Virus record (IMG/VR): IMGVR_UViG_3300035070_002679
Coordinates: 1 to 25,917 of that record
DNA length: 25,917 bases
From: a virus
Reading direction: 5' to 3' (one strand)
Every line of letters begins with the position of its first letter. The first letter of the stretch is position 1. The notes under the pieces were generated by a model. The model was not told the DNA's origin and ran no database searches. It saw nothing but the letters and a program-made list of their open reading frames with translations. Positions 13,696 through 25,888 of this stretch are shown in pieces. The position numbers and the translations under genes were made by a program.

Positions 13696-14022
13696 TTACT
13701 TTTTGAATGGATTGTAAATTTCCAATTCTACTACAAACCCGTTCGGATGCTTGAGAAAGTTTTGATACTCTCTTTCATCAAAGTATTGAGCATATGGTTT
13801 ACTTTGCATTAAACCGTTTGCATCAAATGATCTTTTATGAATTACCGCTAATACTCTTTTTTCGCATCCTTTTTCTGGCTTGCTTCCAACTAATGCCCTG
13901 AACGGTTTTAAGGCTTCAGTTAGGTGCGGATTTTCGTTTTTTGTAACTGTTGTTACTTTTTCTGGACTTTCCATTGATTTAATAATTTTAGGTTTAATAA
14001 TTTTAGGCTTCTTTGTTCTCAT
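13696..14022 (-). CDS. Hypothetical protein overlapping the portal gene
   Basis: A 108-aa basic protein. ATG 14022 overlaps the end of the portal gene by 20 bases. The N-terminus MRTKKPKIIKPKIIKS contains a duplicated Lys-Pro-Lys-Ile-Ile unit created by a perfect 15-bp tandem duplication. A later ATG (codon 17, about 13974) would give a 92-aa form without the repeat. The conserved-looking core is PFRALVGSKPEKGCEKRVLAVIHK, then KPYAQYFDEREYQNFLKHPNG. I do not recognise the family. Its place between portal and scaffold suggests a head-related protein, but no function can be named. Confidence 0.55.
   Translation of the reverse strand: MRTKKPKIIKPKIIKSMESPEKVTTVTKNENPHLTEALKPFRALVGSKPEKGCEKRVLAVIHKRSFDANGLMQSKPYAQYFDEREYQNFLKHPNGFVVELEIYNPFKK
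13978..14007. repeat. Tandem 15-bp duplication
   Basis: TTTAATAATTTTAGG occurs twice head to tail without a mismatch at 13978-13992 and 13993-14007. It spans the portal stop codon and the first codons of the next gene. Both copies carry in-frame stops for the portal, so the portal end is insensitive to loss of one copy. Confidence 0.9.
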
Positions 14023-15706
14023 TGCCTATTGGTTTAATAATGTATGATTTTAAAACTTTCTCAATTTCATTTATCTTTTTGTCAAATGGCATTTTTGCCC
14101 CAAATAATCTCAAAGATATATTTTCACGCTCAAACCTTTTTATTAGGGTTGAAAATCTAACTTTCAACATATAATCAAAATAGTCTATTTGGTTACTATC
14201 ATACATTGACTTTACTTCTGTAATTGTCAAATGTCGGAATGGGTCCAAATTCTTTAATATTTTGTGTTCTTGTTTCTCATCTTTATTGTTTTTGTATTTG
14301 GTATCAATGTACATTTCTTGGAGTTCATCTAATACCATTTGATCCGCATTCATTGCCTTAGCTTCATTATAGGCTTTGAGTAAATCATCACTCGAATACA
14401 AATAAAATTCAGTTCCGTAATTACAGAAATAAGATACAAAGTTTTCCCCAAACATCAACTTTGCCATTGTGGTAAATGTCCATTGCTCAATATGTTCAAA
14501 GTTGGTCTTTAGGTTATATAAAACTTGTTTTCTCTTTTCGTAATTTCCCAATACTTGCTTTTCGTTAACAGCTTCTTTGGTTTGCTCATTAATTACACCC
14601 GTTACCGATTCTTTAAATTTGGTCTCAAGTCTTACCAACTCACCAACATTGTAGTTTAAAGAATTCACATCAACTGGAACAATTCCCACGGGCGGACTTA
14701 AAGCGGGTGTATTTGGAGTTGGTACCGGAACTTCAATAAATGATCCTGCACCTGTAATCCTACTTGAGCATTTAGGACATTTCTTTAGTTTGTTACCTTC
14801 GTAAAGGTATTCCATATTTTTACCACCAAGTAAAAATCCATGATCACAACTAACGTCTCCATCTGTATAATTACAATCTTGTTCATAACCCCAATAGATA
14901 GAAAATGGAGCGTAAAGGTCTGAAAACTGTTTTGAGATTGAATAAAACAAAATCCAATCTAATAAGGCTGTTTTACCTGATATTGGACTTTTCTTTAAAT
15001 CGTTGTTTTCTATTGACATTGTGTCAGTCCAAAACCATGAAGCCGGACAATATCCTAAATCATGTGGATTTTCTGACACCAACATATCTAATTCACCACT
15101 ATCTGACATTTTAAAGGTTCTGTAATATTGGTCACATATGACATAATACTTATCGTTAGAATTATATACGACATACTTAAACTTTCCTTTTTCAGTTTCG
15201 AAGTATTTGATATTTTTAATATCAACCCTGCAAATATAAGGTTCCGGGTATTCTGTAGTTTGTTCTGAAGGTAAGTCAACCACTAACATTGTGTTAATGG
15301 CTGACTTCATTACTTCAAAACCCGTGGTCGAAAAATAATTTTCTAATTCGCTACTTTTTAAATAATCTGAAAATATAACTTCATAATCAGGTTTGGTAAA
15401 CTCATATTTGCGAACGGAATTTATACCGTCAAATACTTTCTCCAATTCTGAAAATGCTTCTTCTGTAAGTAATGTTGTTGGTATTGGTTCCTTAAACAAC
15501 GTTTTAAAAATCGTAAATTTATCTTCAGGTAATAAAGATCGTACAAAGTTAAGAAACTCATTAGCGGCAATATTACTAAACTCTCTTTCAGTTCTTGTTA
15601 CTGAATGAAATTTTAATTTTTCCTGATGCCTTTGAGCTATTGAAAGAGTTTGTTGATTACTCTTCTGTCTTTCCTTTATCGACTGCCTTATTTCCTGAAT
15701 TTCCAT
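14003..15706 (-). CDS. Phage portal protein with embedded four-cysteine cluster
   Basis: A 567-aa protein in the portal position (between terminase region and scaffold). It has a helical N-terminus, a beta-rich wing (CRVDIKNIKYFETEKGKFKY) and a helical C-terminal stem/clip region (KQVLGNYEKRKQVLYNLKTNFEHIEQWTFT). Long portal-like proteins of this type occur in Bacteroidota phages. Unusually, residues about 278-313 hold C-x8-C-x22-C-x2-C (C278, C287, C310, PKC at 311-313), followed by a Pro-rich loop (VPVPTPNTPALSPP). This could bind zinc. The portal forms the dodecameric DNA gate. Assignment is by context and overall layout rather than a single diagnostic motif. Confidence 0.72.
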   Translation of the reverse strand: MEIQEIRQSIKERQKSNQQTLSIAQRHQEKLKFHSVTRTEREFSNIAANEFLNFVRSLLPEDKFTIFKTLFKEPIPTTLLTEEAFSELEKVFDGINSVRKYEFTKPDYEVIFSDYLKSSELENYFSTTGFEVMKSAINTMLVVDLPSEQTTEYPEPYICRVDIKNIKYFETEKGKFKYVVYNSNDKYYVICDQYYRTFKMSDSGELDMLVSENPHDLGYCPASWFWTDTMSIENNDLKKSPISGKTALLDWILFYSISKQFSDLYAPFSIYWGYEQDCNYTDGDVSCDHGFLLGGKNMEYLYEGNKLKKCPKCSSRITGAGSFIEVPVPTPNTPALSPPVGIVPVDVNSLNYNVGELVRLETKFKESVTGVINEQTKEAVNEKQVLGNYEKRKQVLYNLKTNFEHIEQWTFTTMAKLMFGENFVSYFCNYGTEFYLYSSDDLLKAYNEAKAMNADQMVLDELQEMYIDTKYKNNKDEKQEHKILKNLDPFRHLTITEVKSMYDSNQIDYFDYMLKVRFSTLIKRFERENISLRLFGAKMPFDKKINEIEKVLKSYIIKPIGNENKEA

Positions 15707-18681: not shown

Positions 18682-20019
18682 TTAATTCAGCCTTTTTATA
18701 CCCTGTGATTTAGGGGTTAACTCAAAGTATAAACGCATCATTATCATATCTGCAAAGTCCGGCGACCTGCCTAATCTGATTCGTATCTCTTCCTTTTTCT
18801 CTAAACAGTATTTACCTTCATCGTCCATTGGTAAACGGTTTATTTGCTCGAGTTCTTCAATGATCTGTTTTTTAAATGTCAAATCTTGAATGTAAATAGT
18901 GTTGTCTTTTACCGCTTCGCTCAAATAATAGTAACATTGAGCTTTTAGATTCTTAAAGTTTTCCACGTTCTTTTCATCCTGGTTCTGAATGTAAATAGGT
19001 TTTCCGCCATTGTGAAAATTAACTGCTCCAACTAAATTACCATTTCTGGAAGCGTGTCGGGTAAACGTCTGTAATCCATCAGCGTCATAAACGACGTTCT
19101 TTATTGGAACTCTATATTCAATTCTAAGTTCGTGAATTTTCTTACTTACCAAAACGTCGTCAATCTTATCAATAGCAATGATCTTTTTTAGCACTAAACC
19201 TGACCAAATACCAATAACAAAAACGTCCGATCCTGTATATGCAATGTCACAAGTCATATAATTTTCGTTTGTTGGTTTGATGAACTCATTTGTGAACATG
19301 CCTAAAATATTCGAATATTCAAATAATGCGTAAGGGTTATCATCAAAGTTCCAATCACCATCATGAAGACGTTTTTTACTTGCTGAATCCAAACCTAATA
19401 AAGTTTTGATGTAACTTTCTGGTAAGTGTGGGTTGTCTTTTGGTAACGCCTGTATAAACTTTCTTGACGGTCTAAGCTCTTTGTTTAGGTGTGGATTGTA
19501 AAACTCTGTGTATGTCCAATTCTTAGAAGGGTTACACGTTCCTAATATTTTCGGGGTTAAATTATATTCGTTTAGTTTGTATCTTATCCTAGATTTAAGT
19601 ATTTGCCATGCTTTGTAACTCACTTGACTGCATTCATCAACAAAGGCCCCTGTTATCTCTAAGGAACCAAGACTATCAAACTCCGGATCACTTGGATAAA
19701 GAAATAAGTCTTTGAGTAGTATCTCGCTACCATTGGCCCATTTTATGATACCTGAACTTTGATTGTAAACATATTGATCATTGAGTAGTAAAAAAGTAGT
19801 AGTCTCAAAGAATGTATTTAATGTAGTCTCCTTTAATGATTTTAATTTTGCCCTACCCATTACCCACCTAGTACCCGGATAAAGTTGACACATCTCTATT
19901 AACCAAAGAACGCCTATCTTAGACTTACCACCGCCGGCGCCGCCTCCATAAATCAGCTCTTCCGTTTCCCTATCCTTTAGGTAGTAAACCGCATTTTCTT
20001 GCTTTGGTAATAACTTCAT
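18682..20019 (-). CDS. terL: Terminase large subunit
   Basis: A 445-aa protein. The N-terminal ATPase has a Walker A motif GGAGGGKS (about 26-33), Walker B GAFVDEC with acidic pair D128-E129, and the coupling motif TCNPS (161-165). The C-terminal RNase H-like nuclease shows TCDIAYTGSD (D258), VYDADG, and a final SPDFADMIMM. All expected catalytic acids are present, so it should be active. It pumps and cuts phage DNA at the portal. ATG 20019 overlaps the upstream stop as ATGA. The length is typical for PBSX/SPP1-type large subunits, which would suggest headful packaging, though that cannot be decided from sequence alone. Confidence 0.96.
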   Translation of the reverse strand: MKLLPKQENAVYYLKDRETEELIYGGGAGGGKSKIGVLWLIEMCQLYPGTRWVMGRAKLKSLKETTLNTFFETTTFLLLNDQYVYNQSSGIIKWANGSEILLKDLFLYPSDPEFDSLGSLEITGAFVDECSQVSYKAWQILKSRIRYKLNEYNLTPKILGTCNPSKNWTYTEFYNPHLNKELRPSRKFIQALPKDNPHLPESYIKTLLGLDSASKKRLHDGDWNFDDNPYALFEYSNILGMFTNEFIKPTNENYMTCDIAYTGSDVFVIGIWSGLVLKKIIAIDKIDDVLVSKKIHELRIEYRVPIKNVVYDADGLQTFTRHASRNGNLVGAVNFHNGGKPIYIQNQDEKNVENFKNLKAQCYYYLSEAVKDNTIYIQDLTFKKQIIEELEQINRLPMDDEGKYCLEKKEEIRIRLGRSPDFADMIMMRLYFELTPKSQGIKRLN

Positions 20020-22800: not shown

Positions 22801-23268
22801 TTATTGATTTAAAAGTTCCTGAATCTTGTTTTTGATTTGTGTTTCCGCTTCTATTGAAACGTCGGTTTTACGTCCCGGTGAAACTTCTCTATGTGTGGTC
22901 ACTTTGTCTAATCCAAACCCGTATAATTTCATCCTGACAAAACACCACTTAGCAACTGTTTCAATCTCAAATTCTGTCAATCTTCTTTTGTTGGTGTCAC
23001 CACTTACCGCAATACCTAACATAAAACTATTACAATCATTTATACCTTTAAATGATGATTTGCCGGAGTGCCATGCTCTATCATTGTCTTTAGCCAAAAC
23101 AGTAAGATCACCGTTTAAATCTACAATGCAATGATAAGTTACTTTTGATTTAGGGTCTAAACACCAACTAACGGAACCATTATAAGATCCTGATGTATGA
23201 TGCAAAATTATTCCTTTAGGTACTATCTTTTTTTTGCTTATGTTTGGGGACTGCTTAAATGTTTCCAT
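22801..23268 (-). CDS. N-acetylmuramoyl-L-alanine amidase endolysin
   Basis: A 155-aa protein of the Amidase_2 family. It has GIILHHTSGSYNGSV (zinc ligand His 23 or 24 in HHT), TYHCIVDLNGDLTVLA, NDRAWHSG (His 67), and TTHREVSPGRKTD, with His 126, Lys 134 and Asp 136 matching the second zinc ligand and catalytic pair. It cuts the bond between N-acetylmuramic acid and the stem peptide for lysis. No signal peptide is visible, so export would need a holin or a disrupted membrane. No cell-wall-binding domain is present: the whole protein is catalytic. The length is close to T7-type lysozymes. Confidence 0.93.
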   Translation of the reverse strand: METFKQSPNISKKKIVPKGIILHHTSGSYNGSVSWCLDPKSKVTYHCIVDLNGDLTVLAKDNDRAWHSGKSSFKGINDCNSFMLGIAVSGDTNKRRLTEFEIETVAKWCFVRMKLYGFGLDKVTTHREVSPGRKTDVSIEAETQIKNKIQELLNQ

Positions 23269-23502: not shown

Positions 23503-23563
23503 TGGTTCAATTTATTGAATTGCGCAAATAAACAAGTTACCTGCAAGTGCTATGATACTGCTA

Positions 23564-24268
23564 CTATTGAACATTTGTGGGAGAAAATTTAAAAAGTTTT
23601 TCAACGGGCTTCGTTTCATATTTAGCATTCATATTCGTTTTTAGTTCGGATTGCCAAACACATTCAAAGTCATTTGGGGCATTATACTCTGAAATAAAAA
23701 CAGAATGCCCTTCTTTTGTTTTTTCTCTACACCATTGCCAAAAAGCAATATGATTGAACTTGTCTTTATATCCTGCAACACCTTCGTAAGGTGGGTCGCA
23801 ATAAATGATTGAGTTTTTAGGTAAAGCAATATCGCAATAAGAACTTGATGTAAATATAGTTCCTTGCAATCGCTCAACTTGTTTCATTAAGTTTTTTCTA
23901 CCTTCCATTGCATAGTTAGTTCCTCGCTTATTTCTTGCATACGTCCCAAACCAAGTTGAGCCAAATGTTACTGCAATTCCAGTAAATCCTACAAGTTCTT
24001 TTGGATATTGCTCTTTATTGGTTTTTATATCATTGTATTGCTCTTCCGTTATTTCGGTAGGTGGTTGCCAATTTCTATTTACAAGTGCGTTCCACATTTC
24101 TGCAATATACTCATTATAGTCATTGGCAATTCTGTTTCCATCTACAAGTTCAATCATATTGCATCCACCACAAAATGGCTCAACATAAAATTGTTCGGGC
24201 ATTCTGTTTTTTAAAATTATCGGTAGAATGTCTTTGGCAATCCTACGCTTACTTCCCATATATTTCAT
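23564..24268 (-). CDS. D12-class adenine-N6 DNA methyltransferase
   Basis: A 234-aa protein. The N-terminus MKYMGSKRRIAKDILPIIL is typical of Dam/D12 enzymes. The AdoMet-binding motif is YVEPFCGGCN (28-37), followed by IANDYNEYIA (Asp 50). The catalytic motif IV is YCDPPY (156-161). It methylates adenine in a short recognition site using S-adenosylmethionine. No endonuclease gene is adjacent, so it looks like an orphan phage enzyme that may protect DNA from host restriction. The length is slightly below the usual 260-280, the difference probably being in the target recognition domain. It follows the attC-like palindrome at 24328-24417 and starts 60 bases downstream of it. Target sequence unknown. 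Confidence 0.93.
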   Translation of the reverse strand: MKYMGSKRRIAKDILPIILKNRMPEQFYVEPFCGGCNMIELVDGNRIANDYNEYIAEMWNALVNRNWQPPTEITEEQYNDIKTNKEQYPKELVGFTGIAVTFGSTWFGTYARNKRGTNYAMEGRKNLMKQVERLQGTIFTSSSYCDIALPKNSIIYCDPPYEGVAGYKDKFNHIAFWQWCREKTKEGHSVFISEYNAPNDFECVWQSELKTNMNAKYETKPVEKLFKFSPTNVQ

Positions 24269-24327
24269 ACTCTAAAACTTTTTAAATTTTCTTTTCATTT
24301 TCAAATCAAAATCCTGCCAAATAAACC

Positions 24328-24417
24328 GCACCAGCAGGTAACAGCGGTTTTGTGCAAGCTGCCCGACACACAAGCCAACGCTTCGCAGCCTGACACAAAG
24401 CCGCAAAACGTTATGCC
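24328..24417. repeat. attC-like imperfect palindrome A
   Basis: Arms 24344-24362 and 24385-24404 pair at about 17 of 20 positions (GCGG-TTTGTG ... CACAAA-CCGC) around a 22-base loop. The left border motif is GCACCAGCAGGTAAC (24328-24342) and the right border motif CGTTAT (24409-24414). The TAA stop of the Trp-rich protein lies inside CGTTAT, as in palindrome C. Resembles integron attC sites in layout, but the borders do not match the canonical GTTRRRY/RYYYAAC core. Confidence 0.65.
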
Positions 24418-24800
24418 CCATTTAACAAAGCGTTCAATGAACCATCAATATCCAATCTACCACCCCACCATCCAAGACTAAACCAACCGTCATTATTATT
24501 GATAGTTCTTACAAAAATTATCTTTTCGATTTTATCATCGGAAACTTTCAAATCCGCTTTTACGAAGTAATCAGTTTCTTTTGCGTAAAGCCAATCACAT
24601 TCCTCAACTTCTTCTTTCCAGTCATTTAAAGTTTCTTCATCAATTTCTGCGAATGGAATAATTTCTGTAATCACAACTTCCATTCTTCGACTTGGTTTAA
24701 TCTTTCCGTCATCGAAGTAATTATACGTTTGACCCAAAACGGGGCATAACAAAGTATTGCCAATAGTGGGGGTTTCATTTTTCAATTCAACATTTTTCAT
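24411..24800 (-). CDS. Hypothetical Trp-rich accessory protein
   Basis: A 129-aa acidic protein. The end contains NNNDGWFSLGWWGGRLDIDG and the middle DDWKEE-like acidic stretches with paired CDWLYAKETDYFVKADLK. No family with a known role is recognised. I have a memory of similar GWFSLGWWGGRLD proteins in Bacteroidota, often annotated hypothetical. The gene sits alone between palindromes A and B, its stop codon being part of palindrome A, and has no evident promoter of its own within its leader. It looks like a one-gene cassette. Function unknown. Confidence 0.7.
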   Translation of the reverse strand: MKNVELKNETPTIGNTLLCPVLGQTYNYFDDGKIKPSRRMEVVITEIIPFAEIDEETLNDWKEEVEECDWLYAKETDYFVKADLKVSDDKIEKIIFVRTINNNDGWFSLGWWGGRLDIDGSLNALLNGA

Positions 24801-24854
24801 ATTATCAAGTTTTGTATTTTAATTAAAGTTTAGTGGTTTAATGCTCCACCATCG

Positions 24855-24882
24855 GCAATACTCGGAACGTTACCAGTAATGC
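24855..24882. repeat. Short palindrome B, degenerate version of the border motif
   Basis: GCAATACTCGGAAC followed directly by GTTACCAGTAATGC forms a 28-base near-palindrome (12 of 15 positions with overlap). Its two halves resemble the left border of C (GCACTACTGGTAAC) and its reverse complement. No inner stem-loop is present, unlike A and C. It overlaps the stop of the 111-aa gene (TAG 24884-24882). It may be the shortened or recombined form of such a site, or a small terminator hairpin. Confidence 0.45.
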
Positions 24883-25217
24883 TACGAGCGTCTGTGCTTA
24901 ACATCACCTGACATCGTAGAAACTGAACCTCCTATCATTCCGCAATCTACATCGCCTGACATAGTTTGTATATTTCCATCAACATCACCAGTAACTTCAA
25001 CGTCACCGCTTTGTGTTTTGATGTTTTTAACGCTTCCTGTAACTGTTACTTTATTGCAACAATCAACTTCTAATTTTTCAACATCGCCATTTACTACGAT
25101 ATTTATTTCTTTACTGTCTGGCGTTACGTCTTTTCCGTTTACCATAATTTTACCGTTGGAAATCACTACATTTCCACTTCCTTGAATTGTCATTCCGTTA
25201 ATTGAGATTGTGTTCAT
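24882..25217 (-). CDS. Repeat-rich beta-type accessory protein
   Basis: A 111-aa protein with regular beta-strand repeats: ISINGMTIQGSGNVVISNGK, then a GDVxV/xxGSV pattern in the C-terminal half (SGDVEVTGDVDGNIQTMSGD ... GGSVSTMSGDVKHRRS). This resembles the repetitive beta-solenoid-like proteins annotated as DUF4097-type adhesins, which are common in Bacteroidota and lack a defined role. There is no signal peptide, so it is cytoplasmic by sequence. It sits between palindromes B and C as a one-gene unit. The MSGDV repeat occurs three times with small variations. Confidence 0.75.
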   Translation of the reverse strand: MNTISINGMTIQGSGNVVISNGKIMVNGKDVTPDSKEINIVVNGDVEKLEVDCCNKVTVTGSVKNIKTQSGDVEVTGDVDGNIQTMSGDVDCGMIGGSVSTMSGDVKHRRS

Positions 25218-25257
25218 TTTATTTGTATTTATTGATTAAATTAATTTGTGAAGAAAA

Positions 25258-25357
25258 GCACTACTGGTAACAAGGTATATGCAAGATTGGGGTCATTGTG
25301 CTTCTATTGAAAATTTCGTCTCCGAAATCCCCAACCTCGCATATACCCGACCGTTAT
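25258..25357. repeat. attC-like imperfect palindrome C
   Basis: Arms 25274-25292 and 25329-25347 (GGTATATGC-AG-TTGGGG with CCCCAA-CT-GCATATACC) match at 17 of 19 positions around a 36-base loop. The left border is GCACTACTGGTAAC (25258-25271) and the right border CGTTAT (25352-25357), with the TAA stop of the neighbouring gene (25356-25354) inside it. Same arrangement as palindrome A. Confidence 0.7.
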
Positions 25358-25842
25358 ATATTTTCAAATAAAGACCTATCAACTAATTCAATTTCCGGCA
25401 AAGTCTCAAACTTCGCTTTAATCTCTAACATCTTTTTATTGTTCGATTCCAACCAATCAATATAACTCAAAACTCCTGCAGCTCCATTGTTTCTGTAGGC
25501 TTCTTTTAATCGGTTGGTATGAATAATCTCTTTAAATTTGGGTTCTTTGATGTGGTAATTCGGTTCTGGTCCTGAATAACTTTTTAGCATAGGTAAAAAG
25601 TCCACCACAAACCCCGTCTCAGTCTCTTTGCACTCAAAAGGTATATTTATATTATACCAACGCTCCAACGTCTTAACGCCTTCGTTTACGTCGTCAATGT
25701 TTGATATTTCTTTAGTCATTCCACTTTCGAGTAACTTAATAAATTCGTGTCGTCTGACATATGAACCATATCTAACCAACTCATAAGATTTGGGTAATAA
25801 CTTTGCAGTGTTTCCCAACTGCTTTAAAATTTGCTTTTTCAT
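25354..25842 (-). CDS. Phage-like hypothetical protein, 162 aa
   Basis: Start chosen at ATG 25842, preceded by A-rich sequence ending AAATCAA. A GTG at 25881 would extend it by 13 residues through a hairpin and is unlikely. The N-terminus MKKQILKQLGNTAKLLPKSY and C-terminal HTNRLKEAYRNNGAAGVLSY resemble small proteins encoded near terminase genes in Bacteroidota prophages as I remember them (NHxRRLKKA-type). If so, phage sequence flanks the cassette-like genes on both sides. No enzymatic motif was found. Its stop forms part of palindrome C. Confidence 0.55.
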   Translation of the reverse strand: MKKQILKQLGNTAKLLPKSYELVRYGSYVRRHEFIKLLESGMTKEISNIDDVNEGVKTLERWYNINIPFECKETETGFVVDFLPMLKSYSGPEPNYHIKEPKFKEIIHTNRLKEAYRNNGAAGVLSYIDWLESNNKKMLEIKAKFETLPEIELVDRSLFENI

Positions 25843-25858
25843 TTGATTTTTTTTAAAA

Positions 25859-25888
25859 GGTTCGGGTATCTCTTTTGACACCCAAACC
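25859..25888 (-). terminator. Hairpin upstream of the first gene, possible terminator or leader hairpin
   Basis: GGTTCGGGT and ACCCAAACC pair at 8 of 9 positions around a 12-base loop. On the minus strand it is followed by TTTT and lies 16 bases before ATG 25842. A TAnnTTTG-like box (TATTTTTG, 25905-25898) is 9 bases upstream, so the hairpin could instead form at the very 5' end of a transcript. Its -33 region is beyond the window edge. Confidence 0.4.

Follow-up and report, generated by a model that had tools for sequence, protein, structure and literature searches.

The region under study is very probably an array of three cassettes belonging to an integron-like system of Bacteroidota, borne by a phage, situated at an attI-like site and moved by a recombinase other than IntI, as judged from sequence comparison. 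On balance we also favour the wider view that a parallel integron system, with a recombinase that lacks the IntI domain, operates in Bacteroidota and their phages, and that the mirror-image versions found in phages may be exchangeable libraries of anti-restriction DNA-modification genes. The initial annotation had taken the palindromes of this region to mark mobile gene cassettes with attC-like sites, and this is supported by movement with exact boundaries and by an attI-adjacent tyrosine recombinase in relatives. Phage arrays of this type are partly known already, P12002L of Polaribacter having one; what looks new is the recombinase other than IntI, together with its attI and the mirror-image arrangement in phages.

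The window, by which we mean the whole 25,917-base virus record, carries genes for a terminase (18682-20019), a portal (14003-15706), a tape measure and an amidase, every one of them on the minus strand. The order on this strand is a 175-aa gene (25354..25881, its stop TAA lying inside the first box), site C, a 111-aa gene, site B, a 129-aa gene, site A, a D12-class DNA methyltransferase gene, a boundary designated D and then ordinary phage genes, the amidase/endolysin gene (22801..23268, minus strand) being downstream of the array. Read on the coding strand, a site consists of TAAC, 4-5 unpaired bases starting with G, a stem of 15-20 bp, a loop, the second arm, a T and GTTA. Site C (25269..25355, minus strand) reads TAAC-GGTC, 20-bp stem, 36-nt loop, T-GTTA and forms the 5' end of cassette 1; site B (24748..24871, minus strand) reads TAAC-GTTCC, 18-bp stem, 76-nt loop, T-GTTA; and site A (24340..24412, minus strand) reads TAAC-GTTTT, 15-bp stem, 31-nt loop, T-GTTA. 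Three minus-strand cassettes were delimited in this way: cassette 1 (24870..25353), with stem C and the 111-aa gene (phrog_3163, unknown function); cassette 2 (24411..24869), with stem B and the 129-aa gene (no family), the stop TAA of which sits inside the next box; and cassette 3 (23537..24410), with stem A and the D12-class DNA adenine methyltransferase gene (23564-24268, minus strand; Pfam PF02086, 1.6e-17). Boundary D (23519..23550, minus strand) contains GCAGGTAAC, the box that closes the last cassette, and after it the attI-like sequence TTGTTTATTTGCGCAAT; the box itself (23547-23536) is stem-less and no palindrome is present.

The palindromes A (24412-24340) and C (25355-25269) of the initial annotation are real, with the left border GGTAACA and the right border CGTTAT that it had given, and the TAA stop in the CGTTAT border was confirmed on the minus (coding) strand. 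Its stems of 17-20 pairs are imperfect as stated, but measured 15 bp in A and 20 bp in C, and the third site B and the attI-like end D had been missed, B because of its 76-nt loop, which holds the start codon of the following 129-aa gene. Our home-made detector scored the sites at 23.5 (A), 38 (B) and 43.5 (C), and dinucleotide-shuffled versions of the window contained 0-3 sites scoring no higher than 24.5, so that site A is borderline on stem score alone and is supported by its boxes. No credible Rfam family matched the sites, a plasmid search with a site sequence gave no match, and no relatives of the 175-aa and 111-aa genes were found in the viral contigs searched. A search for an empty insertion site returned two phage relatives of the amidase, at 48-49%. 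The 25.9-kb record, which may be a fragment, contains no tyrosine recombinase ORF.

The feature that sets these units apart is the pairing of their ends. Each unit opens with a box GTTAnnnGC and is closed by the complement GCnnnTAAC, so that box complementarity joins the two ends of one unit and not the two sides of a palindrome, a relation overlooked when the palindromes were described simply as flanking the genes. The outer boxes of cassettes 1, 2 and 3 matched at 11/12 (GTTACCAGTAGT/GTTACCAGTAAT), 11/12 (GTTATGCCCCGT/GTTATGCCCCAT) and 10/12 (GTTACCTGCTGG/GTTACCTGCAAG) positions, respectively. In related loci a perfect end match at positions 4-9 was observed for 170 of 267 distinct units, compared with 8 across the site and 8 when shuffled. 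Separated by source, perfect pairs were found in 125/186 viral, 71/90 chromosomal and 44/52 recombinase-linked units, with 5, 3 and 2 matches across the site. Position 11 of the boxes was a near-constant mismatch (4% identity), identified by its base composition as a G-T wobble. The box consensus was GTTAnnnGC with nnn free and a pyrimidine at position 5 in 58% of 437 sites; it does not conform to GTTRRRY / RYYYAAC, in agreement with the earlier description of the borders as non-classical. When each site was folded joined to its own cassette end, rather than as found in the array, the values were -32.9 vs -21.8 kcal/mol for C, -23.2 vs -11.8 kcal/mol for B and -27.9 vs -19.4 kcal/mol for A, a gain of 8-12 kcal/mol at the circle junctions of the window units. 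Paired ends would be expected if the unit circularises, with its two boxes then lying on either side of a single hairpin. As in an integron attC, the site is an imperfect palindrome with boxes complementary within the cassette. A 9-12-bp inverted repeat flanking each gene could also suggest small transposons bounded by terminal inverted repeats, but the repeat varies between units while matching within a unit, unlike a transposase-recognised terminus, consecutive units are arranged head to tail with a single box common to both, and neither a transposase gene nor a target duplication was seen; we regard this explanation as highly improbable.

Sites were collected with one arm pattern and the home-made detector. 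The pattern identified 118 viral stretches, and 327 sites were found in 1.03 Mb of viral loci compared with none in 319 kb of shuffled sequence; the viral contigs are predictions and a few may be host DNA. The same pattern matched at least 118 stretches in genomes, nearly all from Bacteroidota, bearing out the earlier impression that similar palindromes occur elsewhere in this phylum. Similar sites were present in the cultured Polaribacter phage P12002L and the 634-kb phage LR745206, and the 642-kb phage LR756502 gave one pattern match. The sites recur in arrays with unrelated genes between them, which was one of the questions put in the initial annotation.

Comparison of homologous units indicated that cassettes have moved from box to box. 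Aligned pieces of the methyltransferase unit of the window and of a unit of LR745206 showed 78% DNA identity, and the match spans 23536-24343 of the window, box to box. A two-ORF cassette of approximately 1.44 kb was found at 95-99% identity in five Bacteroidota genomes (loci L156, L174, L189, L199 and L236), namely F. denitrificans, Algoriphagus and three others. By reading of the sequence its ORFs resemble a MerT-type mercuric transporter and an ArsR-type regulator, its breakpoints lie at TAAC boxes, and it directly adjoins attI in two of the five genomes. Among homologous cassette pairs the 5' stem was common and the 3' stem different in five and the reverse was found in none; taken alone this test could carry a bias from the search pattern, which is symmetric for 5' and 3' stems, and its result agrees with the box-to-box homology and with the anatomy of the window. 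Because breaks occur at the boxes and the 5' stem travels with the cassette, the crossover is placed at TAA|C, equivalent to the classical G|TT position of the opposite strand. Each palindrome is accordingly assigned to the next gene along the coding strand. Exchange of genes through short repeated stems by homologous recombination, requiring no dedicated recombinase, was considered, as the stem families could provide short homologies and phage genomes are mosaic. It appears very unlikely, as breakpoints fall at the AAC box and not inside the stems, the stems differ at one end, and an attI and a linked recombinase are present. Cassettes have thus been gained, lost and shuffled as units, as in integrons.

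Recombinase genes of one type accompany such sites in relatives. An even sample of 247 Bacteroidota genomes, searched at E <= 1e-60, contained the array-type recombinase in 82, about a third. Regions of 20 kb around recombinase genes of this type held arrays of up to 10 sites, on the 3' side. At the best 29 recombinase loci, which were not chosen for sites, a site lay within approximately 1.5 kb on the 3' side in 15 and on the 5' side in 2; control XerD loci of the same genomes had a site in 1 of 29, a marginal one. Of 19 genomes with a pattern match, 9 showed no array-type recombinase at E <= 1e-60. In one chromosome (CP012155, genome G010, Bacteroidetes bacterium UKL13-3) there were at least 7 array-type recombinase matches, not all beside arrays. 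A MAG labelled Limnohabitans (G291, JASGCW010000224.1, locus L183) appears to belong to Bacteroidia, since the class-level draw around it gave genomes already in the Bacteroidota sample.

The attI of these loci was recognizable from the last cassette. In 20 of 22 arrays the interval from the last site to the recombinase contained an exact copy of the end box of that cassette, in most of those loci 45-165 bp from the recombinase stop codon and followed by a conserved TnnYTTATAnnCG. As in integrons, attI adjoins the recombinase and the first cassette begins there. A position weight matrix built from 32 such sequences (leave-one-out median of the training set 12.2) scored box D of the window at 16.1, rank 1 of 5003 AAC positions, the next position scoring 7.1. 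This rank indicates that the window array ends at an attI-like site, which accounts for the lack of a palindrome at D. The window thus has an attI-like site and the record no recombinase, so the linkage to the enzyme is drawn from relatives. Since the sites are stable stem-loops beside stop codons, in phage arrays between co-directional genes, they might be thought non-recombining terminators, structural RNA elements or REP-like palindromes. We give this reading hardly any weight, given that it is the unit ends that covary and not the palindrome arms, that units have moved box to box between genomes, that recombinase and attI are linked to the sites, and that Rfam gave no match. Neither of the outcomes that the initial annotation had set against its own proposal, palindromes occurring only as terminators or genomes lacking cassette gain, loss and shuffling, was found.

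The array recombinases are not IntI. In the 45 site-bearing genomes no IntI exceeded the family cut-off (TIGR02249 below 265 in 45/45), the best TIGR02249 hits covering IntI positions 3-179 and 238-315 only. Compared with the solved IntI4 the array recombinases lack segment 182-242, and their spacing from KDR to HxLRH was 53-59 residues (one value of 203 being a motif misassignment), that of XerD 65-67 and that of IntI 99-101. They are accordingly not IntI-clade integrases with the additional IntI-specific domain, which is used to recognise IntI and is held necessary for activity (PMC9668308, PMC2426708). The phylogenetic tree recovered IntI and XerD as separate clades (value 100 each) excluding all 45 array-type enzymes, and does not fix how the IntI, XerD and array-type groups join. 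The catalytic R, K, H, R, H and Y were invariant across 21 aligned array recombinases, and for most the top NCBIfam match was NF040815, 'XerA/integron integrase'. The array recombinases share the fold family of XerC, XerD and XerA, but the genomes that encode them have an XerC and XerD of their own, and the array enzymes group apart from the XerD clade and adjoin attI and cassettes. The question of an associated IntI-like or other tyrosine recombinase, raised in the initial annotation, is thus answered for relatives by the latter and not by IntI.

With three attC-like sites and no recombinase the window has the composition of a CALIN (at least two attC, no integrase), and its array could be read as an ordinary one, in which canonical IntI enzymes from passing hosts move plain attC sites and the Bacteroidota recombinases have no connection with the sites that they lie beside. 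The sites do have attC anatomy, and Qi et al. 2023 (PMC9892861), who reported that CALINs occur in virulent phages, described the P12002L array as a CALIN, named so by HattCI, and showed that one P12002L attC recombined with attI1 through IntI1, while another site of this phage failed. This sole experimental recombination known used the canonical IntI1, not the array recombinase. Canonical IntI was, however, found in a single genome of the 198 from Bacteroidia, none of the 45 site-bearing genomes had an IntI above the cut-off, and the array recombinases adjoin sites at 15/29 loci vs 1/29 for XerD and have their own attI. We therefore consider an ordinary CALIN unlikely. The sole IntI among the 198 Bacteroidia genomes (L417, genome G082) has the IntI-specific domain.

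Phage and chromosomal arrays proved to be mirror images. In the frame TAACG-stem-TGTTA the ratio of cassette gene orientations was 177:6 in viral loci and 7:117 in chromosomal and recombinase-linked loci, one arm pattern having seeded both the viral and the chromosomal collections. The attC lies 3' of the cassette gene, as in integrons, in 117 of 124 chromosomal cassettes, and this order is reversed in phages (177/183) and in the window. In viral arrays the TAA of the box often serves as the gene stop, exactly so in 44/189, as the initial annotation had noted for the window. A recombinase search of viral contigs identified 13 with same-strand sites directly upstream of the gene. All 23 scorable cassettes of these contigs had the phage polarity, 18 of 26 had perfect paired ends, several contigs had an attI-like sequence 16-54 nt before the recombinase start codon, and two long ones (208 and 349 kb) carry a terminase. 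One of the 13, the 169-kb viral contig IMGVR_UViG_3300043411_001575 (L048 and L428), has 19 sites, its own recombinase and at least 7 DNA methyltransferase cassettes.

The sites, the cassette-specific paired ends, the box-to-box mobility, the linkage of recombinase and attI and the polarity are read in the sequences themselves; from them we infer recombination through a single-stranded hairpin. The palindrome together with one gene would be the mobile cassette. In the excised circle the end boxes would pair and complete one long hairpin, and the acting enzyme would be the tyrosine recombinase of the clade distinct from IntI, without the IntI-specific domain, which would recombine one strand at TAA|C (G|TTA opposite) and insert the cassette at attI or at another site. 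The chromosomal order is recombinase, attI and genes each followed by a site, and the phage order is, on one strand, a site before each gene, attI and then the phage's own recombinase where present. For a record with an array and an attI-like site but no recombinase, the enzyme would be supplied by the host or by a co-infecting phage, or else be encoded in genome sequence that the record lacks.

The cargo of the two forms was compared. Among 101 non-redundant phage cassette proteins there were matches to N6/N4 DNA methylases (13), C5 methylases (3), D12 (3), Mom (2), Dam (1) and a TET-associated glycosyltransferase (1). Among 84 chromosomal cassette proteins, families with at least two members included Por secretion tails, GmrSD and Mrr restriction enzymes; no methylase was among the families of this size within the first 25 of 79 families, and single-member families among these 25 included Arr, a LinB-like domain and DarT. 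It is plausible that phage cassettes may help to overcome restriction. Host cassettes with the restriction enzymes GmrSD and Mrr and phage cassettes with DNA modification genes, in counts that are small, would be in keeping with an arms race.

Bacteroidetes had been considered almost devoid of integrons: IntegronFinder 2.0 (PMC9024848) found almost no complete integrons there, Salinibacter having the one complete example and the rest being integrase-only elements. The present system, found in about a third of the sampled Bacteroidota genomes, would be missed by the usual IntI-domain search. It resembles integrons in its one-gene cassettes with a palindromic site and end boxes complementary within the cassette, in an attI beside a tyrosine recombinase and in a crossover next to a GTT triplet, and the P12002L array, a phage CALIN, belongs to this family. 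It differs in its recombinase, which lies outside the IntI clade and lacks the IntI-specific domain, in boxes of GTTAnnnGC, with nnn free, instead of GTTRRRY, in an attI approximately 90 bp after the recombinase stop and, in phages, in a reversed gene direction with respect to the sites and an attI immediately ahead of the recombinase start. The system changes where cassette genes are sought, including defence, metal-resistance and antibiotic-resistance families, and it tests the need for the IntI-specific domain, held necessary for attC recombination. Phage versions stocked with methyltransferases would be a specialised means of exchanging anti-restriction genes.

Two related arrangements were observed on plasmids. 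In Acinetobacter baylyi pJAT2044 (NZ_CP104735.1, L414, 2925-5117) TpnF, a recombinase that belongs to the array clade (48% identical), is closely followed by tet(X3). An attI-like stretch separates the two, and an attC-like start, TACTAACA, comes after tet(X3); the two end boxes are mismatched, which makes a cassette origin of tet(X3) only a lead. The recombinase-associated acquired interbacterial defence (rAID) clusters of gut Bacteroidales were described as a defence-gene island in a paper that does not use the word 'integron' (PMC12247911). They likewise have a tyrosine recombinase (approximately 46% identical to that of L303) followed by a short co-oriented gene array with conserved intergenic motifs, but their site cores and boxes (CATTAnnnn) differ and their cassettes are mostly immunity genes, whereas the window has no recombinase and carries a methyltransferase and two genes of unknown function. 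The rAID clusters appear to be a sister of the present system. On a Bacteroides ovatus plasmid (NZ_CP081918.1, L416, 5764-12843) a rAID-like array of immunity genes had adjacent cassette ends complementary at 8/8 bases in all three pairs tested, which suggests that rAID may itself be integron-like.
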